From NCBI GenBank assembly GCA_026984795.1, contig JALSRK010000057.1, forward strand, positions 1 through 64,000: a stretch of 64,000 nt of DNA. Direction: 5' to 3'. This document shows, piece after piece, positions 20,765-32,646 of this stretch. The notes below the pieces were generated by a model. That model was given only the letters and a program-made list of their open reading frames with translations, was not told where the DNA came from and searched no databases. The translations under genes were made by a program, and so were the position numbers. This DNA is from Solibacteraceae bacterium (lineage in GTDB: Bacteria > Acidobacteriota > Terriglobia > Bryobacterales > Bryobacteraceae). The first letter of the stretch is position 1. The number at the start of each line of letters is the position of its first letter.

Positions 20765-21277
20765 TCACGAACGGTCCTTCAGCGCATCCAGGGCGCGCTG
20801 GAGGGCCACCCGATCGGCTTTCTTGAGCGCGTCTTCGAGTTCCTGCTTCAAGTCTTCCGGCGGACGCTGGGCGGCTTCCTCGGCTTCCATGCCCAGGAGC
20901 TTGCGGACGGCGGCGACGTAGGCCGCCGGGCGGACGGGCTTCTCCAGGTAGACGCCCGGCCCGGACATGGTCAGCTCTTCGAAGTCCGCCCTTCCCAATT
21001 CATCGCGAGCGTGTCCGGTGACGATGAGGACAGGAATGCGGTGGAGGGCCTTGTCTTTCTGGAGCTCGCGGTAGAACTTGGCCCCGGAATGGCGGGGCAT
21101 GACGAGGTCCAGGGAAATCAGATCGGGCGGATGCGCCCGGACCTTCTCCAGCGCCTCCAGGCCGTCGCAAGCCGTCTCCACTTCGAAGCCGGCATCCTCG
21201 AGAGCCGCTTTGAGGTAGTCGCGGACGTCCTCTTCGTCATCCACGACCAGGATCCGTTTATCGATTCGACTGCTCAT
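20765..21277 (-). CDS. Single-domain response regulator (receiver only)
   Basis: 170 residues. It is a receiver domain with acidic pocket D13/D14 (LVVDDEEDV), phospho-acceptor D57 (LISLDLVMP), the Thr in IVTGHA and the Lys in YLEKPV. After residue ~130 there is only a charged helical tail (EDLKQELEDALKKADR) and no DNA-binding or enzyme domain. Output would have to go through protein contact or phosphorelay. The gene overlaps the upstream histidine kinase gene by 20 bases, so the pair is translationally coupled and almost certainly cognate. It is the last gene of the electron-transfer operon starting at 27993. Confidence 0.9.
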   Translation of the reverse strand: MSSRIDKRILVVDDEEDVRDYLKAALEDAGFEVETACDGLEALEKVRAHPPDLISLDLVMPRHSGAKFYRELQKDKALHRIPVLIVTGHARDELGRADFEELTMSGPGVYLEKPVRPAAYVAAVRKLLGMEAEEAAQRPPEDLKQELEDALKKADRVALQRALDALKDRS

Positions 21278-23108
21278 GATTCGCCTCGGGTCCGGAACTC
21301 CGTTTGGCCGCCGCGGCGAGCGCCTCCAGACGCCGGCGCGGCAAGCGGATCCGGAAGGTTGTTCCCTTTCCGGGTGTCGATTCTACATCGATCCGGCCGC
21401 CGTGCTCCTGAACGATCTTGCGCGTGGTCAGCAGCCCGAGCCCGGTGCCTTTGCCGCCTTTCGTGGTGAAGAAAGTCGTGAAGATCTTACCCTTGGTCTC
21501 CCAATCCATGCCGCAGCCGTCGTCGCTGACTTCGAAGACGAGGTCGCCGTCCTCTTCCCGGGTCCGGACGACGACGCTGCCGCCGGGTTCTTCGCGCATC
21601 ATGACGGCGTCGATGCCGTTGGAAATCAGGTTGGTGAGGCAAGTCTCCATACCGTCGGGGTCGAGGGGCGCCGGACGGACATCGAAACCGGGTTCGAAGC
21701 GCAACTGCACGCCTTGCCGGCGGGCGGCATCCCGATAGAGCTCCACGACATCGTGGGCGATGGAGTTGGGATCGACGGTCTGGAAGTCCGGCAACCGTCC
21801 CTTGGCGAAGCTCAGGAAGTCCTTGACGAGGGCGGTGATCTTGTCGAAGTTGCGGCGAAGCACCTCCCAGCCGTTGATGATGCGCTCGGCATCGCTGCGG
21901 CGCAAGCCGGTGTCGAGCATGTACATGCCGCCCTCCAGCCCCATCAGAACGTTCTTGATGGTATGGGCGAGGCCGGCGACGGTTTGCCCCACGGCCCCCA
22001 GCCGTTCCGCTTCCAGCTTCTCTTGCTCGAGGCGCTTGAGTTCGCGGAGATCTTCCATGAAGACGGCGTGGCCCAGCGATTTGGCCCCGCTCTTCATACC
22101 GACGGCGGTAAAGCGGACCGGGACCGTCTCGCCGCGGGCGTTGCGTACAGCGGTTTCCGGAAGCTGCACTACATCGCCGTCGAGGGGCTTGCGACGGAAG
22201 AACTCCTCCGGGAGCCAGGTTCGCAACCGGCGGCCCGAAGGCAGCCGGGCGGCGCTCCAGGCCAGCAACTCGCGGGCGGCGGGGTTCATCACCCGGACGC
22301 GGTCGTTGTTGTCCACAGCGAGGATAGCGGTAGCCGCGTTGCGGATCAGAGCCTCGTAGAAGTCGTGCGCCTCCTGGAGCCGCATCTCCAGCTCCCGGAT
22401 GGGCGTGATGTCGGTGGCCATCTCGATGACGTGCTCGACGCCCGCGTCGCCCCGGGAGAGAGGGCTGGTAGTGACGACGTAGTAGGTGGGCGTGCCTTCT
22501 TTCGAGACGCCTTCCTGCCGGCCGGTGTGCTCCTGGCCGTCTTCGAAGGTCAAGGCCGCGGGACACCGGCCGCACGGCTCGTTACGGCGCTTGCAGACGC
22601 GGTAGCAGTGTTGCCCTTCGACCTCGCCGAACTTCTCCCGGAACTTCTCATTGGCGCGGACGATGCGGAAATCCCGGTCGATGACGCAGGCGAGGCTCGG
22701 CATCCGCTCGAAGACGAGGTTGTACTGCTGCTGCCAGTGCCGGGTTTCGGTGAGATCGGTCGTCATTTCGATGACGTACTCGACCTCGCCGGTCGGGCCG
22801 CGGAGGGGAGCCAGGTGAACGACATAATGGCAGCGGCGCCCGTGGCGGTCGATGCCTGTTTCGTCGGAGACGCGGACGAGGCCGTCCTCGAAAACCGCGG
22901 CGGCCCGGCAATGGGGGCAGCGCACCCGGATACCCTTGAAGACCTCGTGGCAGCGCCGGCCTTCCCAGTTGCCGAAGAACTGGCGGAAGTTCTGGTTGGC
23001 GGCGACGATCTCGAAGTCGCGGTTGATGACCGCAACATTGAAGGGCACGTGCTCGAGCAGGTTCTGGCCGAGCAGCGGTTCCAGTTCCTCGGGAACGCCG
23101 GCGCTCAT
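21258..23108 (-). CDS. PAS-domain sensor histidine kinase with Cys-rich PAS domains
   Basis: 616 residues, no membrane helix seen, so probably cytoplasmic. There are three PAS domains (~15-125, ~130-240, ~250-360). PAS1 has C53 and C64-x2-C67; PAS2 has C168, C172 and C179-x2-C182, spacings that could hold a metal/iron-sulfur centre or thiol switch. The dimerization helix carries H382 in LAHTIKN. The ATPase domain shows LISNGIDAV, DDGCGMD and a TKGGKGTGLGL lid. ATG 23108 overlaps the stop of the NrfD-cytochrome gene (ATGA). This fixed coupling to a respiratory operon suggests sensing of redox state or electron flow. Confidence 0.9.
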   Translation of the reverse strand: MSAGVPEELEPLLGQNLLEHVPFNVAVINRDFEIVAANQNFRQFFGNWEGRRCHEVFKGIRVRCPHCRAAAVFEDGLVRVSDETGIDRHGRRCHYVVHLAPLRGPTGEVEYVIEMTTDLTETRHWQQQYNLVFERMPSLACVIDRDFRIVRANEKFREKFGEVEGQHCYRVCKRRNEPCGRCPAALTFEDGQEHTGRQEGVSKEGTPTYYVVTTSPLSRGDAGVEHVIEMATDITPIRELEMRLQEAHDFYEALIRNAATAILAVDNNDRVRVMNPAARELLAWSAARLPSGRRLRTWLPEEFFRRKPLDGDVVQLPETAVRNARGETVPVRFTAVGMKSGAKSLGHAVFMEDLRELKRLEQEKLEAERLGAVGQTVAGLAHTIKNVLMGLEGGMYMLDTGLRRSDAERIINGWEVLRRNFDKITALVKDFLSFAKGRLPDFQTVDPNSIAHDVVELYRDAARRQGVQLRFEPGFDVRPAPLDPDGMETCLTNLISNGIDAVMMREEPGGSVVVRTREEDGDLVFEVSDDGCGMDWETKGKIFTTFFTTKGGKGTGLGLLTTRKIVQEHGGRIDVESTPGKGTTFRIRLPRRRLEALAAAAKRSSGPEANHEQSNR

Positions 23109-24970
23109 CGCTTGCTCTTGCTTTCCGGCAGCGGCGGCAGCACGACTTCGCTCCCCGGCGCCCGGAGCCCGCGGAAATCGAGGTCGGGAGCGTCAACGAA
23201 CCGGCGCCGCTCCTTGTGGCACCAGGCGCAGCGCGGCATGTCCGGCTTGTGCCTTGACGCGGCCCGCTCTACATGGCAGCCGACGCAGAGCCGGTGCATC
23301 GCCTCGGTATAGCTGGGCGCCTGGTACTGCTTCACCTTGATGACGGCCCCTTCGGCCACCAGGTCCTTATGGCACTGGTCGCAGGTCTTGGCGGTCTCCT
23401 TCGTTCGGGGCCGGCCGGGTGTGTGGCATTTGACACAGGGAAGCGCCGCCCCCCGCGGGCCGGCATGCCAGTCATGCCGGAAGGCATCCGAAGGAGCGTA
23501 CATGTCGCGATGGCATACGCCGCAGGGGGAAGCTTTGTCTCTCGGCAGATTCATGTGGTGGCACCGGGCGCAGGACTTCTTACCGCCTTCGCGCTTCTCA
23601 TGATCCGCGTGGGGGAAAGCGACGCCGTAGCCGTCCAGGTTCCCGTCGATCCAGAGCACGTCGGCGCCGCGGGCGTTGTGGACGGGCACGGGGACGATGC
23701 CGCGGGAAGACGCCGGCTGGGGGTGGATCAGCGCGAAGCCCAGGGCGGCCGCCCCGACGAAAGCGAGCGAATAGACCGTGCGGTTGGCGACGACCGGAAC
23801 GCCCAGCCAGGTGGCGCCGACGGCGCTCAACTCGGGCAGCTTCCTGGGGTCGGCTTCGGGGTCTACCGGGCGCTCCTGCCACACACGGAAGTGCTCGATG
23901 AAGAACAGAAAAGCCAGCACCGCGGCCGAGACGATCCCGGCGCTGATGGTGATCTCGGTCCAGGACGGCCAGTAGAGCCGGTCTCCGCGGCCCTGGTGCA
24001 TCAGGCCGCCAACGTTCACGCGGTTCAGTACCACGCCGGCGACGCCGAAGAGCGCGCCGGCCCATTGCCAGGTCTGGTTACGGCGGGTTTGCGGAAGCGA
24101 GAAGATCGCGATGGGGACGAACGCCATCACCGCGAGTTCGAACCAGAACCACCAGACCTGCCAGCCGGCGCCGGCCAGATGGTGGAGTTGACCGCGCCAG
24201 GCGAGGTCGGCGAACCGCAGGGCCAGGTAGACGACCAGCACCCACCGGGCGGCCGCGGCCAAGGAGGCCATGAGGTGGGTTTCCGGCTTTCGATAGTAGA
24301 AATAAGCGGTGGTGTGACTCTCGAAGATGACCATGGCCAGGCCGAGCCCAATGGCCGAGACCAGGAACAGCACCGGCAGAATGGGCGAGTACCACAGCGG
24401 ATGCAGGTACTCCGGCATGATCAGGAACAGGGAGCCAAGCGAAGACTGGTGCAAGGTGGAGAGGCCGATCCCGGCAATCACCAGCGGCAGGCGGATCTTT
24501 ACCAGGAAGCGCCGCACCGAGGCGAGCCGGCTGATCTCTTCGGCGGGAACGGGCAGAAACTCCAGCGTCAGCACCGTGAGATAGAGCATGACGCACCAGC
24601 CGACCTCGAACAGCGGCGAATGGGGATTCCAGTAGATCAGCATGTGCCAGATGTTCCACGGCAGGCCGAGATCGAACAGGAGCCCGACCGCCACGGCCAC
24701 GTAACCGAGAAAGGCGGTCAGAACCGCCGGCCGGACGATGACGTGGAAGCGCTCGAGCTTGAAGATATAGACCGTAGCCGTGACGATGAAGCCGCCCGCG
24801 GCGAGGGCCACGCCGCTCATGACGTCGAAGCCGATCCAGACGCCCCAGGGGTAGGCGTCCGAGAGGTTGGTGGCTGCTCCGAGACCGAACAGGAAGCGGA
24901 AGACGCCGACCGCCGCCGCCAGGCCGGTCAGCGCCCATAGAAAGAACTTCAAGCGCCGGACTCTAGCCAT
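23105..24970 (-). CDS. NrfD/HybB-type membrane subunit fused to a hexaheme cytochrome c
   Basis: 621 residues. The N-terminal ~430 residues are a polytopic NrfD/PsrC/HybB-like protein (about nine or ten helices; opening FFLWALTGLAAAVGVFRFLFG), the quinone-interacting subunit of complex iron-sulfur enzymes. From residue ~467 to ~586 there are six CxxCH heme sites (CARCH, CGVCH, CVKCH, CDQCH, CVGCH, CAWCH). Free His residues that could act as distal ligands are also present (PHADHEK, FRHDWHAG). In Hmc, Dsr or Qrc complexes the cytochrome is a separate gene; here it is joined in frame, placing the hemes in the periplasm. It overlaps the ferredoxin gene by 8 bases and the kinase gene by 4. Confidence 0.92.
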   Translation of the reverse strand: MARVRRLKFFLWALTGLAAAVGVFRFLFGLGAATNLSDAYPWGVWIGFDVMSGVALAAGGFIVTATVYIFKLERFHVIVRPAVLTAFLGYVAVAVGLLFDLGLPWNIWHMLIYWNPHSPLFEVGWCVMLYLTVLTLEFLPVPAEEISRLASVRRFLVKIRLPLVIAGIGLSTLHQSSLGSLFLIMPEYLHPLWYSPILPVLFLVSAIGLGLAMVIFESHTTAYFYYRKPETHLMASLAAAARWVLVVYLALRFADLAWRGQLHHLAGAGWQVWWFWFELAVMAFVPIAIFSLPQTRRNQTWQWAGALFGVAGVVLNRVNVGGLMHQGRGDRLYWPSWTEITISAGIVSAAVLAFLFFIEHFRVWQERPVDPEADPRKLPELSAVGATWLGVPVVANRTVYSLAFVGAAALGFALIHPQPASSRGIVPVPVHNARGADVLWIDGNLDGYGVAFPHADHEKREGGKKSCARCHHMNLPRDKASPCGVCHRDMYAPSDAFRHDWHAGPRGAALPCVKCHTPGRPRTKETAKTCDQCHKDLVAEGAVIKVKQYQAPSYTEAMHRLCVGCHVERAASRHKPDMPRCAWCHKERRRFVDAPDLDFRGLRAPGSEVVLPPLPESKSKR

Positions 24971-25748
24971 TGCTGCGCCCCTCCTGCGGCGCCTCGTCGC
25001 CTTCGGGATGCTCCTGCAGCTTCCGGCGCCGGTCGATGATCCAGTTCAGCCCGGCCATGGCCGCCACCACTCCGGCGAAGGTGAACGGGACGGCGTTCAT
25101 GGCCAGCTTGGTGCGCTGCGGCATGGGTTCGGGAGGCAGTTCCCGGTTGTAGGTGAGGAACTTCAGATCGACATCGGAGATATAGAGCACCGAGGCGCCG
25201 CCGACCTCACGCTCACCCCAAACACGGTGGACATAGAGGTCCGGCTTCTCCCGGATGCGCGCCTTGGCAAGTTCGATCAGCTCGTCGCGGTCGCCGAAGA
25301 TGGTGGCCTTCGTCGGGCAGGCTTCCGTGCAGGCCGGCTGGCGGCCCTTCTTCAATCGAGTCTCATAACAAAGGATGCATTTGCGGATGTAGGGGACGGT
25401 CTGGTCCCAGTCATAACGCGGGATGCCGTAGGGGCAGGCCATCATGCAATAGCGGCACCCCATGCACTTTCGGGCGTCGTAGACCACGGGGCCGAGATCC
25501 GTCTTCGTGAGGGCCCCCACCGGGCAAGAAGCAACGCAAGCCGGCTCCAGGCAGTGGCGGCACTGCTTGCGGACATAGGCCCCGCCGGGCCCTTCCACCA
25601 CCGAGGTCCAGTTGCGGGCCGAGAGGCCGTCGTCGCGGCTCCAACGCCGCGGAAGGTCGGGCGGCAAACGGTTTTCTTTCTTGCAAGCGATGACACATTC
25701 ACGGCACCCGATGCACTTCGTCGTGTCGGTGAGAATCGCGGCGTGCAT
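24963..25748 (-). CDS. Four-cluster ferredoxin-like subunit with C-terminal membrane anchor (HmcB/DsrO-like)
   Basis: 261 residues from ATG 25748, five bases after the cytochrome b gene. Four Cys clusters for [4Fe-4S] centres are seen: CIGCRECVIAC; CRHCLEPACVASCP; CMGCRYCMMACP; and CILC with CTEACP. This is the fold of electron-transfer subunits HybA, HmcB, DsrO and NrfC. There is no Tat or Sec signal at the start, so the clusters should face the cytoplasm. A hydrophobic helix near residues 220-240 (VPFTFAGVVAAMAGLNWII) anchors it. It would pass electrons between the NrfD-type subunit and the HdrD-like protein. Confidence 0.92.
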   Translation of the reverse strand: MHAAILTDTTKCIGCRECVIACKKENRLPPDLPRRWSRDDGLSARNWTSVVEGPGGAYVRKQCRHCLEPACVASCPVGALTKTDLGPVVYDARKCMGCRYCMMACPYGIPRYDWDQTVPYIRKCILCYETRLKKGRQPACTEACPTKATIFGDRDELIELAKARIREKPDLYVHRVWGEREVGGASVLYISDVDLKFLTYNRELPPEPMPQRTKLAMNAVPFTFAGVVAAMAGLNWIIDRRRKLQEHPEGDEAPQEGRSNG

Positions 25749-25753
25749 TCCAG

Positions 25754-26527
25754 TCAGGCCTCCTCGGTGGGGGTCAGGATCCGGTCGGTCGCCACGCGGG
25801 GACGTTCGACCCACGTCGGCCGGTCCGCGTAGCCCAGAGTCTCGGCCACGCGCTGTCCCGCCCGGGGCGGGAACTTCCAGGCCAGGCCGGAGACGTACTG
25901 CGAGAGGGGAAACAGGACGCAATGGGCGATCTTGGTGAAGGGGATCAGAAGCAGGATCAAGTTCCCGGCGAACACGTGCAACAGCATCAGCCACTGGTAG
26001 GCGCGGGGACTCAGCACGGCGTGGGAACAAAGATAGCCGGTGGCGAACGGGACGACGAGCAGCAACGGCCAGACGTACTCCTGCCGTCGGCTCAGCGCCC
26101 GGGCGGCGGAGTGGAACACCCGCCCGGCGAAGAGCCCGAGCCCGGCGGCGACAGCAGCCAGAGTGAGCCAGTCGGCCAGCGCCTGAGGCAGTTCCGCCCA
26201 TGCGAACCCCACGGCGCGCTTCCACAGCAGCACATGGGCGGGCAGGAAGAGGGGAACGAGAAGCAGGCCGGCATGGAAGACGACGGACACGGCGCTGTAG
26301 ATGGGCCGCTTGCGCCAGAGCGAAGAGACCGGGACAAGCCACTTGGCTGTCTGGACGGTCAGGTCGCGCCAGGGGACGATCTTGTCGGCGGAACGGTCCC
26401 AGGCCTCCTTCATGCCCAGGATAGTGAGGACCAGGATGCGCAGCAGCCCGAGGATCATCAAGGAGAAACAAAGGCGGAACAGCGGCCCGCGTGCGAAGTC
26501 GAGCCAGGATTCCAACGACATCGTCAA
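25754..26527 (-). CDS. NarI/DsrM/HmcE-like cytochrome b subunit
   Basis: 257 residues with about five membrane helices. ATG 26527 overlaps the preceding stop (ATGA); ATG 26521 is an alternative. Candidate heme b ligands are the His residues in VVFHAGLL, LPAHVLLW, CSHAVLSP, LLHVFAGN and TKIAHCVLF, matching the nitrate-reductase gamma-subunit pattern. In DsrMK and HmcEF this subunit exchanges electrons between the quinone pool and an HdrD-like iron-sulfur protein, the gene directly upstream here. No nitrate reductase catalytic subunit is in the window. Confidence 0.88.
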   Translation of the reverse strand: MTMSLESWLDFARGPLFRLCFSLMILGLLRILVLTILGMKEAWDRSADKIVPWRDLTVQTAKWLVPVSSLWRKRPIYSAVSVVFHAGLLLVPLFLPAHVLLWKRAVGFAWAELPQALADWLTLAAVAAGLGLFAGRVFHSAARALSRRQEYVWPLLLVVPFATGYLCSHAVLSPRAYQWLMLLHVFAGNLILLLIPFTKIAHCVLFPLSQYVSGLAWKFPPRAGQRVAETLGYADRPTWVERPRVATDRILTPTEEA

Positions 26528-27993
26528 TCTCCTTTCTCATCCCGCGAGGCCGCGCCGGCGGCTTCCGGTTCGGCTCCTCCTTCGGATTCGCCGAAGATGA
26601 TGGCTTTGTAGAGCAGATCGTGCAGCCCGACGATCTCACAATCGACGCCCTGATCCTCCATGAGTTCGCGCAACTGTTTCTTGCAGTTGGCGCACGGGGC
26701 GATGCAGTACTTTGCTCCGGTGGCGCGTATCTGTTCGGCCTTCACCTTGCCGCCCACGGTGGTCCGGTGGGGCCGGATCTCGTCGATGGAGACCGTGCCG
26801 CCCCCGCCGCCGCAGCAGATGTTGTCGCGGCGGTTGGGCGTCATTTCGACATAGTGGCTGCAGAAGGCCCGGATCAGCTCCCGCGGCTGTTCGACGATCC
26901 AGCCGGGTCTCGCAATGTTACAGGGATCGTGGTAGGTGACGGGCTCGGTGATGGCGCCGGGCCTCAGCTTCAGCTTTCCCCGCTTCCAGGCCTGGTAGGT
27001 GTACTCCAGGATGTTGATGACGGGATGCGCCCCGCGGCCCCCGCAGAACGACGGATAGAAGTACTTCGCCGTGCGCGAGGCGTGGCCGCACTCGCCGATG
27101 AGAACCTTCTTGACCTTCAGCCGCTCGGCCTCGGCGTGGATCTTGCCAAGAACCTCTTCCATCACGTGGTCGTTGTAGAAGAGGCCGTAGTTGATGGCGT
27201 CGTAGTATTTCGTGCCGATCGTCCAGGAGTCCCCCGTGGCGCGGAACACCGCCGCGATCCCCATGAGCGTGTCGGCCTCCATCATGTAATCGGAGACGGG
27301 GGCGAGGAAAAGGTACTCGGCGCCCTCCTGGTCGATGGGAAAAGGAATCTCGATCCCTTTCTCTTCGGCCATGTCCTCGCTCAAGAACTCGAGGCTGTCA
27401 ATGAGCGCCGGTAAAGGGATGGCCGATGTGTTCTGCGTCTTGCCGATAAGTTGTTCGCGGGTGCTGACGACGAGGGCTCGAGGAGCGATGCCGATCTCGG
27501 AGAGGATGTAGCGGCCGAGGTGAGTGACCAGGCCGTGGTCGATCCCCATTGGGCACTCGCGGACGCACCGCCGGCACGCCGTGCAGTTCCAGAAGGAATC
27601 GGCCATCTCCTGGATCTGTTCGTCAGTCAGGCCGGGGTCGCCTAGAATGCGTCCCCGAAGGATCCCGGAGAGAGTGAAGTGGCGCCGGTAGACCGAAAGC
27701 AAGAGTTCGGACCGATAGCAGGGCACGTCCTTCGGGTTGCCCGTAGCCAAGTAGATCTGGCAGTGGGTGGTGCAGCGGGAACACTTGGCGCTCACGCGGA
27801 CGTAGTGATCGAGCGCCAGACGGTAGTTGGTGTGTTTCAGGATGGCGGCGAACGTCTGGAGGAAGCGCCGGGGCCGTTCGGCTACGTCGAAGTCTTCCAC
27901 GTGGTAGCGGACAGGAAGGCGTTGCCGCCGGACCACCTCGGGCTTCTTGGGGATCGTGTAAGCCTTGGCGAGTTCTTCCTGGGTCAGTAGCAT
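26524..27993 (-). CDS. HdrD/DsrK/HmcF-like iron-sulfur protein
   Basis: 489 residues, soluble. Two ferredoxin-type Cys sets are seen: C71-x2-C74-x3-C78 with C92, and C137-x2-C140-x2-C143-x3-C147-P. The C-terminal half has CCG-domain features: GECGHASR, HDPCNIAR, then ICCGGGGG, then CANC. The second CCG motif is complete and the first looks partial. In heterodisulfide reductase this module binds the catalytic cluster that cleaves disulfides; in DsrK it acts on the DsrC trisulfide. No DsrC-like gene is seen here, so the thiol/disulfide substrate is unknown. It is the first gene of the operon, with a promoter at 28021-28049. Confidence 0.9.
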   Translation of the reverse strand: MLLTQEELAKAYTIPKKPEVVRRQRLPVRYHVEDFDVAERPRRFLQTFAAILKHTNYRLALDHYVRVSAKCSRCTTHCQIYLATGNPKDVPCYRSELLLSVYRRHFTLSGILRGRILGDPGLTDEQIQEMADSFWNCTACRRCVRECPMGIDHGLVTHLGRYILSEIGIAPRALVVSTREQLIGKTQNTSAIPLPALIDSLEFLSEDMAEEKGIEIPFPIDQEGAEYLFLAPVSDYMMEADTLMGIAAVFRATGDSWTIGTKYYDAINYGLFYNDHVMEEVLGKIHAEAERLKVKKVLIGECGHASRTAKYFYPSFCGGRGAHPVINILEYTYQAWKRGKLKLRPGAITEPVTYHDPCNIARPGWIVEQPRELIRAFCSHYVEMTPNRRDNICCGGGGGTVSIDEIRPHRTTVGGKVKAEQIRATGAKYCIAPCANCKKQLRELMEDQGVDCEIVGLHDLLYKAIIFGESEGGAEPEAAGAASRDEKGD

Positions 27994-28020
27994 ATCAAGA
28001 TAATCATCCCTGATACTCCT

Positions 28021-28049
28021 ATTCTAGCTCGTGCCGGCGCCTCCGTCAC
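28021..28049 (-). promoter_or_regulatory. Promoter of the HdrD-NarI-ferredoxin-NrfD operon
   Basis: On the minus strand, GTGACG (28044-28049) and TAGAAT (28021-28026) lie 17 bases apart, 27 bases before ATG 27993. Confidence 0.45.
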
Positions 28050-28153
28050 CCAAATATTACGCGGAAGTCTGGTTTGGTTTCGACGACTAAGTTGGTATAT
28101 TTACTCAGACCATTCCTCGAAGCCGCTGAGCGTTTTCGTACAGCCGGCCACGT

Positions 28154-28159
28154 TATACT
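28154..28159 (+). promoter_or_regulatory. -10 element for the CbcL-like gene
   Basis: TATACT lies 83 bases before ATG 28243. The -35 region is weak (TTTTCG at 28133), so an activator may be needed. The surrounding divergent interval (27994-28242) is A+T-richer than its neighbours. Confidence 0.35.
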
Positions 28160-28242
28160 GAGAACTTCATTCGCCGCGGCGGCGAGTAAGCTCGCTGCCT
28201 CTGGCGCCCAAGCTCGGCCCGCTCGCAGGAAGGGAATTCACC

Positions 28243-30789
28243 ATGCCGACCGATTCCCCGCTCAACCGCTTCTGGCCGGCGGTCCGAGGCGCTGCATTGG
28301 TGGCTGTGGTGGCGCTCCGGGTCAGTGCTCAACACCAGCCGGTCACGCTTTACGACAAAGACTTCAACGAAATCAATCCGATGACGGGTGAGAACGCCGA
28401 CGCGCCGTTCAGCCCGAAGAATACCTGCGGCACCTGCCACGACTACGACACGATCACCTCCAGCTATCACTTTCAGATGGGCTGGGACAAGATCTCGGAC
28501 GACTTCGGCAAGGAGCACGGCCGGCCGTGGGATCTCTCCGACGGCTTTATGGGCCGCTGGTATCCGTACGCCTACCGCCAGTTGGCCAAGAAGAAGAACT
28601 CCTATCCGGAGGAGATCGACCTGACGGTATACGATTTCGTCGGCTTCTCCCGCAGCGGCCCGGACCAGCCCCCCTGCGGCGCCTGCCACCCCGGGGGCGG
28701 CGGCCTCGAATACGACCGGGACGGCGAACGTTACGACGAACGCCTGCGGGAGCATCCGGAGCTCCGTGATTCCCTCGACGGCGATTACTACCGCAGCCGG
28801 TGGGACGCGAGCGGCGTAGTCGAGGCGGACTGTTTCATCTGCCACTGGCCCCGCTACGATTTCAGCGAACGCGTCCGGCAACTGGAAATGGGCAACTATC
28901 AGTGGGCCGTGGTCGCGGCCACCGGGCTGGGCATCGTCGAGGGTTCGGTGGTTGACGGCGAGCGGCCCAAAGTCATTTACAACCGGCGATTCTTCAATGA
29001 AGACGGCACTCTGACGCCGCCGGTCTCCTGGCCGCCCCCGGGCGAGAACTGCGTCTTTTGCCACGGCACCTCCGACGTCAAGAAACGGGGGTTCTCCTGG
29101 AAGGACATCCGCAACCCGGACATCCACCAGCAGCAGGAGATGGCCTGCGTGGCTTGCCACACCGCCGGTCTGGACCACCAGATCACCAAGGGCGACGACT
29201 CTGTCTCGACGGTCGCCGACAACCTGGACAACACGATGATGGGCTGCCGCGACTGCCACCAGAGCGGCTATCACGGCGCTTCGATCCCCCGCCACCGCAG
29301 CGTCCGGCCCGGACACGTTGAGACCATCGCTTGCGAAACGTGCCACATTCCGAAACTCCACCGGGCGGCGGCGCTGTGGATGGAGACAACAACGGGCGAG
29401 CTGGTGTTCGCGACGAATCCACCGACGGCCAAGGAGTTCGGCGAACACGCCGAGTGGGAGCCCGTCTACGACCGCCGCGACGGCGGCCGCATCTACCCGG
29501 TCAACGAAGTTTTCACGTCCTGGTGGGGGAACCTCGATGAAGACGGCATCGTGTACCCGCTCTTCTTGAGGGAGCAGAGGGCAGCGTGGGAACGGTTCTC
29601 TACGGCCGTCAGCGACGACAACGGCGACGGAAAGCCCGAAGTGAACCGCCGGGAAGAGATGGTGGCCGGACTCCGGGCGCTCTCGGAGACTTTGCGGGGC
29701 AACCGGCGTTTCCGGCGGATCCATCCGGTGTTCCTCAAAGGCCGCGCGGCCTGGCACCTCGATGAGAACGGCCGCCTGGCCCGCCTCGACTACGATGTGA
29801 AGGGCCTGACGAGCGTGACGTTTTCGATCACCCACATTGTGGCTCCTGCGCGCCTGGCTCTGGGCGCAGGAGGCTGCCGCGACTGCCATGCCAGCAACGC
29901 CCGGTTCTTCACCGGACCGCGAATCGTGGATCCTTACGGCGAGACCGGTCAGCCGGTGACAGAACCCAACGGAGAAAGCATCGGCTGTGAACTGTGGGCC
30001 TTCTCCATCAACGCCCTGCATCAACGGATTCTGAGTCCGGCGGTGAGCCTAGGGATCATCATGGTGATCTTCCTGATCGTCGTCCACTACCACAGCTACG
30101 GGCCGAAACGAATCCCCTTCGAACCGTTCAGCCAGGAGATTCAGCGCTTCACGCTGCTCGAGCGGTTCATCCATCTGTTCCGTCTGATCGCCTTTGTCGT
30201 GCTGGCGGTGACGGGAGTGATCATGGCCTTCAACTCGACGCCGTGGCAGGAGCTCTTCTTCCGCTCGCCCCAGCAGATGCTGGAGTTTCACATCGGTTTC
30301 GGCATCGTGTTCATCATCACCACCGTGATGGGCATCGTCGTCTGGTTTCGCGACGCGCTCTTTGCCGACTACGACAAGAAATGGGTGCGGATCATCGGCG
30401 GCTACCTCGGCTACAAGGGCAGCGTCCCGGCGGGGCGGTTCAACGCCGGCCAGAAGATGTTCTACTGGTACACGGCCTTCTTTGGCCTGGTAATGGGCGT
30501 CACCGGTGTGGCGCTGATCTACAAGAGGGCCTTCAACCTCGCCGACGTCTGCTTGACGGCGACCGTTCACAATCTGTTCGGTTTCATCCTGATCGCGGGG
30601 GTGCTGGCGCACGCCTACCTGGGAACCATCGCCAACCCGGGCACCTGGCGGGTCCTGGTGGACGGCTATGTAACGAAAGCGTGGGCCCGGCACCACCATC
30701 CTTACTGGTACCGGGAGCTAGTCGAGCAAGGCAAGATCCGCGACGAGGAAGCCGACCCGGCCGGCGGGGGCCACCCGAGAGACGTTTGA
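28243..30789 (+). CDS. CbcL-like octaheme cytochrome c fused to FdnI-type cytochrome b
   Basis: 848 residues. ATG 28243 follows AGGAAGGGA. A signal segment (~15-30) leads into a periplasmic domain with eight CxxCH heme sites between residues 62 and ~550 (CGTCH, CGACH, CFICH, CVFCH, CVACH, CRDCH, CETCH, CRDCH). A first helix near 590 (LGIIMVIFLIVVHYH) starts the membrane part. A diheme cytochrome b of the formate-dehydrogenase gamma type follows (LLERFIHLFRLIAFVVLAVTG, FHIGFGIVF, TVHNLFGFILIAG). This order matches Geobacter CbcL, an inner-membrane quinol oxidase needed for low-potential extracellular respiration. Divergent from the Hmc-like operon, it probably shares its regulation and electron pool. 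Confidence 0.9.
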   Translation: MPTDSPLNRFWPAVRGAALVAVVALRVSAQHQPVTLYDKDFNEINPMTGENADAPFSPKNTCGTCHDYDTITSSYHFQMGWDKISDDFGKEHGRPWDLSDGFMGRWYPYAYRQLAKKKNSYPEEIDLTVYDFVGFSRSGPDQPPCGACHPGGGGLEYDRDGERYDERLREHPELRDSLDGDYYRSRWDASGVVEADCFICHWPRYDFSERVRQLEMGNYQWAVVAATGLGIVEGSVVDGERPKVIYNRRFFNEDGTLTPPVSWPPPGENCVFCHGTSDVKKRGFSWKDIRNPDIHQQQEMACVACHTAGLDHQITKGDDSVSTVADNLDNTMMGCRDCHQSGYHGASIPRHRSVRPGHVETIACETCHIPKLHRAAALWMETTTGELVFATNPPTAKEFGEHAEWEPVYDRRDGGRIYPVNEVFTSWWGNLDEDGIVYPLFLREQRAAWERFSTAVSDDNGDGKPEVNRREEMVAGLRALSETLRGNRRFRRIHPVFLKGRAAWHLDENGRLARLDYDVKGLTSVTFSITHIVAPARLALGAGGCRDCHASNARFFTGPRIVDPYGETGQPVTEPNGESIGCELWAFSINALHQRILSPAVSLGIIMVIFLIVVHYHSYGPKRIPFEPFSQEIQRFTLLERFIHLFRLIAFVVLAVTGVIMAFNSTPWQELFFRSPQQMLEFHIGFGIVFIITTVMGIVVWFRDALFADYDKKWVRIIGGYLGYKGSVPAGRFNAGQKMFYWYTAFFGLVMGVTGVALIYKRAFNLADVCLTATVHNLFGFILIAGVLAHAYLGTIANPGTWRVLVDGYVTKAWARHHHPYWYRELVEQGKIRDEEADPAGGGHPRDV

Positions 30790-30797
30790 CGGGGATC

Positions 30798-31802
30798 TCA
30801 CCCGGACAGGAACTGCCCGATGTAGCGAAAGGCCACGCCGGCGACCAAGACACCGAGCAGGAGGCGAATCCAGAGCTCGGGCAGGTATTTTTGCAGGCGG
30901 GCCCCAACGAACGTCCCCGCCAGGCCGCCGATGCCGAAAAGTCCGCCCAGCATCCAGTCGGGCCGGACGGCGAGCCCCGTAGAAACCGGCAGATGGGCCA
31001 GGTACTCGTAAACGCCCACGCCGGCGATGGAAGTGACGAAGCTGCCGAACAGCGTGGCGCCGGCGATGGTGTACACGGGCAAGCGCAACACCGAAACAAT
31101 GAACGGGGCGATGATGGCCCCGCCGCCGATGCCGTAGATTCCGCCGACGATCCCCACCACGAACGCCAGCCCGAGCAGCACCGGCACGGAGAACGAAAAG
31201 GTCTCGCCCCAGAACTCGTATTCCACCGTGCGCCAGGTGATGCGCTTGGTGCGCACGCGGGCCTCCGGAGGAAGCCGGCGCCGGAACTTGTCGCGGATCG
31301 GATCGGCGACGCTCCCGCGACTCGCCACCCGCCGGTACCATTGGCTCAGGATGCGCCAGCCGAGCCAGAGCAGAACCAGCCCGACGAAGAACTTCGCCGA
31401 GCGGGCGTCGGGCATGTATTTGACCCGGACGAGGGCGCCGATGAAGATGCCCGGCAGGGTGCCCAGCAGCGTCGTGCCGGCGATGGGCCAGGCCATCCGG
31501 CCCTCCCGAATGTACTGGGAAACGCCGCCCGGAATGGCCACGATATTGTAGAGCAGGTTCGTTGCGCTGACGGCGGGACTGGTGAAGCCCAGCACGCTCA
31601 TCTGGAAGGGCAAGAGCAGAAATGCGCCTGAAACGCCGGCCGAGGAGACAACCGTCGCGATCCCGAAAGCCACCAGTGGCGGCAGGAGCGGGTTGCACTC
31701 CACTCCCGAGATTGGAAAATGCACATCCCAGTGTACAACCTCGTCCCGGAGCGGCTCCCGGGCGGCCGATTTCAGTTGACGCGCCAAGGCCGGCTCCTGC
31801 AT
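30798..31802 (-). CDS. TauE/SafE-family membrane transporter
   Basis: 334 residues from ATG 31802; a later GTG near residue 27 is possible. About eight helices in two halves, each with the family pattern (PLVAFGIATVVSSAGVSGAFLLLPF and GLAFVVGIVGGIYGIGGGAIIAP). A charged cytoplasmic loop joins them (RDKFRRRLPPEARVRTKR). Members export sulfite, sulfoacetate or other small organic anions. The stop lies eight bases from the convergent CbcL-like gene. Its start is only 22 bases from the divergent SDR gene. A link to sulfur chemistry of the neighbouring HdrD-like system is tempting but unproven. Confidence 0.85.
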   Translation of the reverse strand: MQEPALARQLKSAAREPLRDEVVHWDVHFPISGVECNPLLPPLVAFGIATVVSSAGVSGAFLLLPFQMSVLGFTSPAVSATNLLYNIVAIPGGVSQYIREGRMAWPIAGTTLLGTLPGIFIGALVRVKYMPDARSAKFFVGLVLLWLGWRILSQWYRRVASRGSVADPIRDKFRRRLPPEARVRTKRITWRTVEYEFWGETFSFSVPVLLGLAFVVGIVGGIYGIGGGAIIAPFIVSVLRLPVYTIAGATLFGSFVTSIAGVGVYEYLAHLPVSTGLAVRPDWMLGGLFGIGGLAGTFVGARLQKYLPELWIRLLLGVLVAGVAFRYIGQFLSG

Positions 31803-31824
31803 CTTGTGGGGGGAGGCCCCTCGA

Positions 31825-32646
31825 TTGTCTGTCTGGGAACAGAAGAACGTACTGATCACCGGCGCCGGACGAGGCATCGGCAAGCGCCTGGCCATCGGCT
31901 TCGCCGCCAAGGGGGCGCGGGTGGGGCTTCTCGCCCGGAGCAAGGCGGAGCTCGATCTGACGCACATGGAGATCGAACAGGCAGGCGGGCGGGCGATCCG
32001 CCTTCGGGCCGACGTCGCCAATTACGCCCAACTGCGGGCTGCGGTGGACCGCTTCCGGACCCGCTTCGGCGAGGTGGACGTGGCCGTGTGCGCGGCGGCG
32101 GTGGTCGGGCCGATCGGCGCCTTCTGGGAGAGTTCGCCGAAGGCCTGGGACGCGGCGATCCAGACGAACCTGCTCGGGGTGTGCCACACCTGCCGGGCTG
32201 TCCTGCCGTCGATGGTGGCGCGCCGGCGGGGAAAGATCCTCGTGCTCGCTTGCGCCGGCGCAATCCGGCCTCAGCCGGGCTTTTCCGCTTATGCGGCCTC
32301 CAAGACGGCTGTCGTCCGACTGGTGGAAACGGTCGCCGAGGAAGTCCGGGACTACAACGTCCAGATCAATTGTCTCCATCCGGGGCCGACCTATACTCAC
32401 ATGACGGACGTGATCCTGCGGGCGGGCTCGAAAGTCGGGGCGAAGGAGCGCGAGGAGGCCGAGCGGCTGCGCTCGACCGGCGGTACGACGCCCGACAAGC
32501 AGATCGAGCTGGCGCTGTTCCTGGCTTCCGAGGAGGCCAACCACATCAGTGGCAAGCTGATTCACATCCGCGACGATTGGCGGCGCCTGCGCGACGGCCA
32601 GATTGACTCGGAGCTGCTGACGCTCCGCCGGGTCCGCCGGCGGTGA
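31825..32646 (+). CDS. Short-chain dehydrogenase/reductase
   Basis: 273 residues from TTG 31825, chosen because GGGAGG lies about ten bases upstream and the fold begins directly after it; TTG 31804 is in frame but probably too early. The cofactor motif is VLITGAGRGIGKRL (TGxxxGxG), followed by the strand-4 block AVCAAAVVG in place of NNAG. The catalytic Tyr-Lys is in YAASKTA, with an Ala-rich strand (LACAGAI) where the catalytic Ser is usual, so that residue appears missing or shifted. The insert TTPDKQIELALFLAS and the ending fit classical SDRs. The substrate is unknown. Confidence 0.85.
   Translation: MSVWEQKNVLITGAGRGIGKRLAIGFAAKGARVGLLARSKAELDLTHMEIEQAGGRAIRLRADVANYAQLRAAVDRFRTRFGEVDVAVCAAAVVGPIGAFWESSPKAWDAAIQTNLLGVCHTCRAVLPSMVARRRGKILVLACAGAIRPQPGFSAYAASKTAVVRLVETVAEEVRDYNVQINCLHPGPTYTHMTDVILRAGSKVGAKEREEAERLRSTGGTTPDKQIELALFLASEEANHISGKLIHIRDDWRRLRDGQIDSELLTLRRVRRR

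Follow-up and report, generated by a model that had tools for sequence, protein, structure and literature searches.

A compact, putative Hmc-like electron-transfer module with a fused hexaheme cytochrome co-occurs with dsrA in Acidobacteriota and Zixibacteria

The route by which electrons reach DsrC in sulfate and sulfite reducers outside Desulfobacterota is poorly known, and a locus in a Solibacteraceae genome (Acidobacteriota) raises the question of whether a second transmembrane complex may serve it alongside DsrMKJOP. The locus lies in a stretch of 64,000 nucleotides (contig JALSRK010000057.1, positions 1 to 64,000), henceforth the window. It comprises six minus-strand genes (20765-27993) that encode an HdrD-like protein, a NarI-like membrane subunit, a ferredoxin (Fdx), an NrfD protein fused to a hexaheme cytochrome (NrfD-hexaheme or NrfD6h), a sensor kinase and a receiver protein, and these are divergent from a gene for an octaheme cytochrome c fused to a cytochrome b (Oct8). 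We refer to the four redox genes as the module. We think it probable that their products assemble into a single membrane-spanning complex, related to Hmc but more compact, which would move electrons between DsrC-type thiols, menaquinone and periplasmic cytochromes and would supplement DsrMKJOP under the control of the kinase and receiver, with Oct8 acting separately in the same chain.

Gene content and subunit affiliations

The positions, strands, divergence and tight spacing given in the initial annotation were all borne out (Table 1). Specifically, adjacent minus-strand genes share 4-20 bases, and when the ATG starts of the NarI-like gene and the ferredoxin are used, intervals of 2 and 5 bases result. 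The 14 c-type hemes it had claimed agree with the CXXCH motifs counted, six in NrfD-hexaheme and eight in Oct8. All seven proteins match Pfam families above cut-off (the NarI-like protein barely, at 26.1 bits against 22.9), and this, together with the gene order and heme motifs kept in other genomes, means that the locus is not due to chance. The base composition of the window showed no island.

Table 1. Features of the locus and its flanks, with positions in the window.
Feature	Position	Strand	Details
HdrD/DsrK-like cytoplasmic subunit	26524-27993	-	two Fer4 sites and one CCG domain; Pfam CCG, Fer4_8
NarI/HmcE/TmcC-like membrane subunit	25754-26527	-	five predicted transmembrane helices
HmcB/HybA-like multi-[4Fe-4S] ferredoxin	24963-25757	-	TTG start at 25757, ATG at 25748
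HmcC/HybB-like NrfD fused to HmcA-like hexaheme domain	23105-24970	-	Pfam NrfD, Cytochrom_CIII
Sensor histidine kinase	21258-23108	-	three PAS-type domains; Pfam PAS_4, PAS_9, PAS_8, HATPase_c
Receiver protein without output domain	20765-21277	-	Response_reg is the sole Pfam family over cut-off
Oct8	28243-30789	+	N-terminal signal-like helix, octaheme c domain, C-terminal FdnI-type cytochrome b
Intergenic region between the divergent genes	27994-28242		249 bases, reaching to the HdrD-like gene start; one weak sigma-70-like match, minus strand, 28049-28021
TauE/SafE (TSUP) transporter	30798-32021	-	convergent with Oct8; Pfam TauE 117 bits

The best NCBIfam matches agree with the earlier description of the parts as Hmc/Dsr-like, and none reaches its equivalog cut-off. 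The NrfD part scores 313 bits against HmcC (cut-off 550), 295 against HybB and 29 against DsrP (350); the ferredoxin 232 against HmcB (420), 206 against HybA and 94 against DsrO (200); the NarI-like protein 134 against HmcE (275) and 127 against TmcC; and the HdrD-like protein 287 against DsrK (400), 217 against TmcB and 208 against HmcF (750). Ten further module HdrD proteins, scanned singly, also score best against DsrK (254-292 bits), compared with 737 bits for the true DsrK of the window's own genome. When a profile of 14 NrfD-hexaheme proteins was searched against the PDB, the 16-heme cytochrome 1z1n came first (E 3.6e-12), and other HmcA entries stood beside c3 cytochromes; the HmcA model matches 13 of these proteins and the HmcC model all 14. 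The same database returned only one distant reductase (9ojn) for the HdrD-like protein.

These scores bear on a rival reading in which the locus is a true Hmc whose HmcA has been shortened and fused, and whose partners are a periplasmic hydrogenase or formate dehydrogenase, as in Desulfovibrio. HmcC, HmcB and HmcE are indeed the best matches of three subunits and HmcA that of the tail, and Hmc and Tmc loci also carry response regulators and kinases (accessible parts of PMC5109826 and PMC4162548). We nevertheless regard a true Hmc as rather unlikely, given that every score lies under its cut-off, that DsrK outscores HmcF in 11 of 11 module proteins (the window's and the ten others), that the operon has no space for HmcD and that the ferredoxin bears no signal for twin-arginine translocation (Tat).

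Conserved residues are found at the predicted cofactor sites of the module. Among 12 HdrD-like sequences, cysteines 71, 74, 78 and 92, cysteines 137, 140, 143 and 147, and cysteines 358, 393, 394, 434 and 437 are invariant (Fer4 and CCG sites), as are histidines 85, 98, 184 and 202 in 11 NarI-like sequences, a number that suffices for two b hemes. The hexaheme tail contains, in 14 sequences, six CXXCH motifs and six extra invariant histidines (454, 457, 472, 499, 502 and 559), which could suffice for six bis-histidine hemes. Hydropathy predicts 11 helices in the NrfD part, with 18 lysines and arginines in the even loops (cytoplasmic if the NrfD N-terminus is inside) versus 4 in the odd loops; this bias suggests that the N-terminus is probably inside and the hexaheme domain outside.

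Conservation of the module

We compared the locus with 247 genomes from the window's phylum and with a second sample of 132 Zixibacteria genomes. In the first sample 88 genomes have some NrfD match at E <=1e-20. The 12 best NrfD loci outside the window have six CXXCH motifs each, which with the window puts the hexaheme form in 13 genomes; four weaker, longer matches (G161, G062, G132 and G193) turned out on reading to be other fusions. Module-type HdrD proteins (at least 57% identity) occur in 14 of the 247 genomes, the next match being at 35%; the extra genome, G127, is cut by contig ends.

Homologues of the module are not scattered singly. Among 23 module loci (the window, L080-L091, L139 and L150-L158, with L090 and L155 truncated), 21 could be judged, and 20 of these, from three phyla, preserve the order HdrD-NarI-Fdx-NrfD::hexaheme. 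In the HdrD tree the module stands apart from DsrK, and the sequences of the window, G073 and G245 group with four Zixibacteria rows, away from other genomes of the window's phylum. This grouping suggests a transfer, while the very long branches and the absence of Desulfovibrio references from the tree leave the kinship unsettled.

Some observations concern relatives of single parts. Other NrfD fusions, with 3 or 13 CXXCH motifs and no adjacent HdrD or NarI gene, occur in G062, G132, G161 and G193 (loci L136, L137, L094 and L138), none of which has dsrA. Pairs of ferredoxin and NrfD genes without HdrD or NarI (L092-L099) have a kinase and a receiver directly downstream in 7 of 8 cases (L098 is cut) and are possibly another regulated quinone complex. 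Directly before the HdrD gene, two module loci carry proteins with a dinitrogenase FeMo-cofactor-type domain (L151:14136-14951 and L153:5491-5898).

Association with dsrA and sulfur metabolism

The module co-occurs with the pathway of sulfite reduction, a link that the initial annotation had not mentioned and that Oct8 shows as well. In the window's phylum dsrA was found in 23 of the 247 genomes (21 times above cut-off, and as fragments in G136 and G245), and 13 of the 14 module genomes are among them (p 1e-14). In Zixibacteria, module-type HdrD is present in 41 genomes (leaving out two with only 40-41% matches), dsrA in 52 (47 over cut-off, the rest fragments) and both in 38 (p 6e-18). At the family level, all 7 module families are among the 10 with dsrA (p 8e-8, with the total of 72 taken from the highest family label). 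All these tests treat genomes as independent. The co-occurrence argues that the module probably takes part in transmembrane electron transfer in sulfur respiration.

Four genomes carry the module on the same contig as dsr genes. In G078 it immediately precedes dsrA and dsrB, and a DsrC-family gene follows at a greater distance; DsrP is about 3 kb away in G118 and about 20 kb in G245; and in G248 a single strand carries, in order, dsrM, dsrK, dsrJ, dsrO, dsrP, a PF03601 membrane protein, TauE, NarI, Fdx and NrfD6h (DsrK and DsrP are over cut-off, the other dsr genes being named by position and heme count). The window's own genome encodes dsrA (605 bits), dsrB, QmoC adjacent to dsrAB, a DsrC with both C-terminal cysteines, and DsrM, K, J, O and P, all over cut-off, with CydB nearby. 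Since dsrAB, dsrC and a full dsrMKJOP are thus present, the module is an addition to them. A replacement of DsrMKJOP by the module is ruled out, as DsrP exceeds its cut-off in each of the 14 module genomes of the first sample (and in 22 of 24 genomes tested altogether). One gene that resembles qmoB by eye scores below cut-off against HdrA models and is given no name here.

An alternative explanation of the association is the shared ancestry of anaerobic lifestyles, the complex helping to maintain redox balance under anaerobic conditions in general, in partnership with ferredoxin or a different thiol carrier. This would fit the absence of the module from some dsrA genomes and the [NiFe] hydrogenase-type genes downstream of one module (L088:235-2248; VhuA-like 414 and VhuG-like 129 bits, both below cut-off). 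Yet the association appears in two phylum samples and at family level, and four genomes place the module on a dsr contig, which makes this explanation unlikely.

Three observations touch on the same metabolism. The window's genome has a second DsrC-like protein that retains only the last C-terminal cysteine (G000:C53:56379-56678). In 23 genomes with no true dsrA match (e.g., G161:C86, G022:C51 and G060:C22; from coordinates, by eye), an HdrD-like gene has a DsrC-family gene no more than about 3 kb away, and a DsrC-HdrD partnership may operate there without sulfite reductase. Finally, a 70% identical copy of the window's TauE/SafE transporter stands between the dsrMKJOP and NarI-Fdx-NrfD6h genes in L150, and the transporter probably belongs to the sulfur gene set.

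The ferredoxin and its missing Tat signal

The ferredoxin has a single predicted transmembrane helix in its C-terminal tail (residues 223-241). Read by eye, it has no Tat signal in the window, and none was found in 20 of 20 further module loci with a readable N-terminus (L090 is cut) by a simple motif rule (twin arginine plus hydrophobic stretch, rather than a trained predictor), once flags at L086 and L091 had been discounted; the residues flagged there precede the start codon or belong to the ferredoxin fold. The same rule flags the DsrO proteins of G000, G073, G245, G118 and G248, and misses a signal that is visible by eye in the L136 ferredoxin. Ferredoxins of NrfD pairs without HdrD (L092-L099 and L137) are mostly signal-less too, flags at L092, L097 and L099 resembling the same artefact, and the lack of a signal is therefore not private to the module. 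HmcB has been described as a tail-anchored Tat substrate, one signal-less relative being thought to travel with a hydrogenase (accessible part of PMC10924467). As this operon holds no such partner, the ferredoxin may lie on either side of the membrane, which the missing signal turns into a clear experimental question.

Kinase, receiver and regulation

The two-component system that the initial annotation had described as built in is a frequent companion of the module: kinase and receiver adjoin it in 16 of 22 loci (L139 could not be judged), the exceptions being L082, L088, L150, L155, L157 and L158, and in L089 they lie upstream. PAS domains 1 and 2 of the kinase each bear a C(H/Y)xVxK...CxxC motif, and a motif of this kind was present in 10 of 10 kinases scanned, twice in that of the window. 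The receiver finds its best NCBIfam match in DVU0259_DivK (90.6 bits; cut-off 160). Response regulators and kinases beside Hmc and Tmc have already been described in Desulfococcus and Desulfovibrio (PMC5109826 and PMC4162548, as above), and the link to regulators is thus not new.

The region between the divergent genes holds no match to the sigma-54 pattern tried, and the window as a whole has 7 matches against 7.9 expected. Near the module in six other loci (L083, L087, L151, L153, L157 and L158) a motif scan, backed by Pfam for L153 only, found sigma-54 activators with a DGVFTVD PAS motif; other activators lie near it in L081 and L091.

The divergent octaheme cytochrome Oct8

Oct8 matches the Pfam families Ni_hydr_CYTB and Mtrc-MtrF domain, and its FDH-gamma match (155 bits) exceeds the NCBIfam cut-off of 115.85. 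Ahead of the membrane part, 10 sequences share eight CXXCH motifs and eight extra invariant histidines, and together these argue for electron transfer and not catalysis. Close relatives (58-66% identity) were found at 14 loci, which belong to Acidobacteriota, Zixibacteria, a chromosome from Gemmatimonadota and a bacterium that is unplaced. Within the sample from the window's phylum, the window's genome alone carries Oct8 at such identity, the other 30 matches being weak or partial. Among 12 genomes with relatives that were searched, dsrA is present in 10 (9 over cut-off; none in G255 and G257) and a full-length NrfD-hexaheme protein with six CXXCH motifs in 7, to which G252 and G253 add the HdrD type. 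The Zixibacteria genomes with Oct8 have dsrA in 10 of 11 cases (p 4e-4) and the module also in 10 of 11 (p 3e-5), and among Zixibacteria with dsrA the link between Oct8 and the module is not significant (p 0.17).

The initial annotation had read the locus as two quinone-linked systems arranged back to back and tuned by one redox sensor. The arrangement is real in the window, yet it was found there only and was rejected as a conserved unit: the flanks of the 14 Oct8-relative loci, several of them short, contain no module genes; module and Oct8 lie about 2.7 Mb apart on the single-contig Gemmatimonadota chromosome; and they are on different contigs in 10 Zixibacteria genomes that have both (many of these assemblies are fragmented). 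Because the two are not neighbours in other genomes, a shared sensor is unsupported for Oct8.

Oct8 might instead be an octaheme enzyme that reduces tetrathionate or sulfite and includes a quinol dehydrogenase of its own, as a partial match to the tetrathionate-reductase octaheme family and the dsrA context would allow. This appears decidedly improbable: the match to TIGR04315 (57 bits) is far under the cut-off of 375, which excludes Oct8 from that family, whereas an octaheme protein at L083 scores 550, and eight extra invariant histidines for eight hemes suggest that no heme site is open. The L083 gene (11059-13514, over cut-off) lies downstream of the module there and is followed by a separate cytochrome b gene, identified by eye.

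The neighbours of Oct8 relatives include DmsE-type (MtrA-like) decaheme proteins over cut-off (L009 and L012), 19- to 21-heme cytochromes (L008, L011, L017 and L018, the L008 copy with a cytochrome b part) and a protein of about 583 residues, without a Pfam match in the case of L008, that could be a barrel. They suggest an outer-membrane conduit in those organisms. The complex and Oct8 might accordingly wire the cytoplasmic sulfur pathway to such a conduit for extracellular electron uptake or disposal, and 4 of 23 module loci (the window, L083, L086 and L091) do have multiheme c/cytochrome b genes close to the module. Against this stand the separation of module and Oct8 in other genomes and the lack of any CXXCH-rich gene beside Oct8 in the window other than the module, although no search of its genome for a conduit was made. 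We consider this wiring improbable.

Proposed function

What the sequences show is the parts, their order, the heme sites, the predicted topology and the association with dsrA, whereas the formation of a complex, its partnership with DsrC, the contact with quinone, transfer in one or the other direction and the regulation are inferred. In the complex that we favour, the HdrD/DsrK-like subunit would trade electrons with a thiol/disulfide carrier of the cytoplasm, which is most likely DsrC, and the diheme NarI-like subunit would connect it to menaquinone. The NrfD subunit would bind menaquinone and pass electrons to or from its own periplasmic hexaheme tail, which in turn may exchange them with soluble periplasmic cytochromes. 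Where a bacterium has the Dsr pathway, the complex would work in addition to DsrMKJOP, with its level or activity under the control of the kinase and receiver. Oct8 would act apart from it in the same respiratory chain, as an oxidoreductase between quinol and periplasmic cytochrome.

Several observations weigh against this proposal. The module is absent from 10 of 23 dsrA genomes in the window's phylum and from 14 of 52 in Zixibacteria, which means that the Dsr pathway does not require it. Conversely, Zixibacteria G257, G271 and G352, as well as G127, have the module and no detected dsrA; incomplete assemblies may explain these cases (G127, the only one of the four with a completeness figure, is 64% complete and has DsrP). 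One locus, L150, lacks the HdrD subunit beside the module, and the fusion of NrfD to hemes is not in itself linked to dsrA, other such fusions occurring in genomes without it. The ferredoxin has no Tat signal, unlike the DsrO of its own genome and the described HmcB. Finally, single-chain structure predictions were unusable (predicted local distance difference test, pLDDT, of 43 for P0003 and 47.5 for Oct8).

A more radical possibility, which we consider very unlikely, is a distinct machine in which the HdrD-like subunit and the unsignalled ferredoxin are both cytoplasmic and only the hexaheme domain is outside. In such a complex the thiols of DsrC and a further low-potential carrier would meet menaquinone and periplasmic hemes, and electron pairs could be split or merged; the receiver, having no output domain, would gate it through direct contact, with Oct8 as its link to an outer-membrane conduit. 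If true, sulfur respiration would be joined to extracellular electrons. On the favoured reading, the module, which follows dsrA in both phylum samples, offers a named and testable candidate for a second transmembrane complex on the route of electrons to DsrC. The combination of NrfD-hexaheme and HdrD provides a marker for the module, which illustrates how an Hmc-type complex can be rebuilt via fusion of a cytochrome to the quinone subunit.

Comparison with known systems

The fused NrfD-hexaheme complex was not named in the literature that full-text searching found ("fusion" was not a query word, and the scope was main texts, with few subscription papers). Hmc, Tmc, Qrc, NrfD, HdrD and "multiheme" are absent from the accessible main texts of three papers on Acidobacteriota with dsr genes (PMC6018796, PMC8528874 and PMC9448743); the accessible part of PMC10564751 lists Qrc and other NrfD complexes and neither Hmc nor Tmc, and PMC10591310 has none of Hmc, Tmc, Qrc and NrfD. 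In this literature the kinds of parts and the link to regulators are known already, while a hexaheme fused to NrfD, a ferredoxin with no signal, this order of genes and so close an association with dsrA beyond Desulfobacterota were not encountered.

Oct8 resembles CbcL in combining an N-terminal multiheme c domain with a C-terminal FdnI/HydC-type cytochrome b, and differs in having eight hemes where CbcL has nine (accessible part of PMC6295460); the likeness observed is one of architecture.

For the module, Hmc and Tmc are described as complexes that carry electrons between periplasm and cytoplasm, with DsrC or ferredoxin as the suggested partner, Tmc being thought to pass electrons inward and Hmc perhaps outward (PMC4215793 and PMC5109826, in part). 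Tmc likewise has HdrD- and NarI-like parts, a periplasmic c3-type heme protein and kinase and receiver genes nearby; unlike the module, with its NrfD and fused hemes, it has no NrfD subunit according to the accessible part of PMC4215793, and its TmcA is separate. The Hmc complex of Desulfovibrio (HmcABCDEF) shares the NrfD, HmcB-like ferredoxin, NarI-like and HdrD-like parts, HmcA-like hemes and an adjacent receiver gene. In the module, however, six hemes are fused to NrfD in place of a separate 16-heme HmcA, the ferredoxin lacks the Tat signal, the HdrD part is nearer DsrK and the order is F-E-B-C::A; the closely packed redox genes contain no HmcD (the search being limited to the operon), and the module was found here in other phyla. 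DsrMKJOP has the same kinds of parts, its DsrK is the closest match of the HdrD subunit, and it is dsrA that the module tracks. The NrfD and ferredoxin of the module are nonetheless not DsrP- or DsrO-like, its six fused hemes differ from triheme DsrJ, its HdrD proteins score far below the genome's own DsrK, and the true DsrP and DsrO are encoded elsewhere in the genome. The gene set is therefore unusual, as the initial annotation had proposed, and its architecture differs from that of a standard Hmc or Dsr complex. We class the module as a variant of the Hmc/DsrMKJOP kind and a member of neither family.

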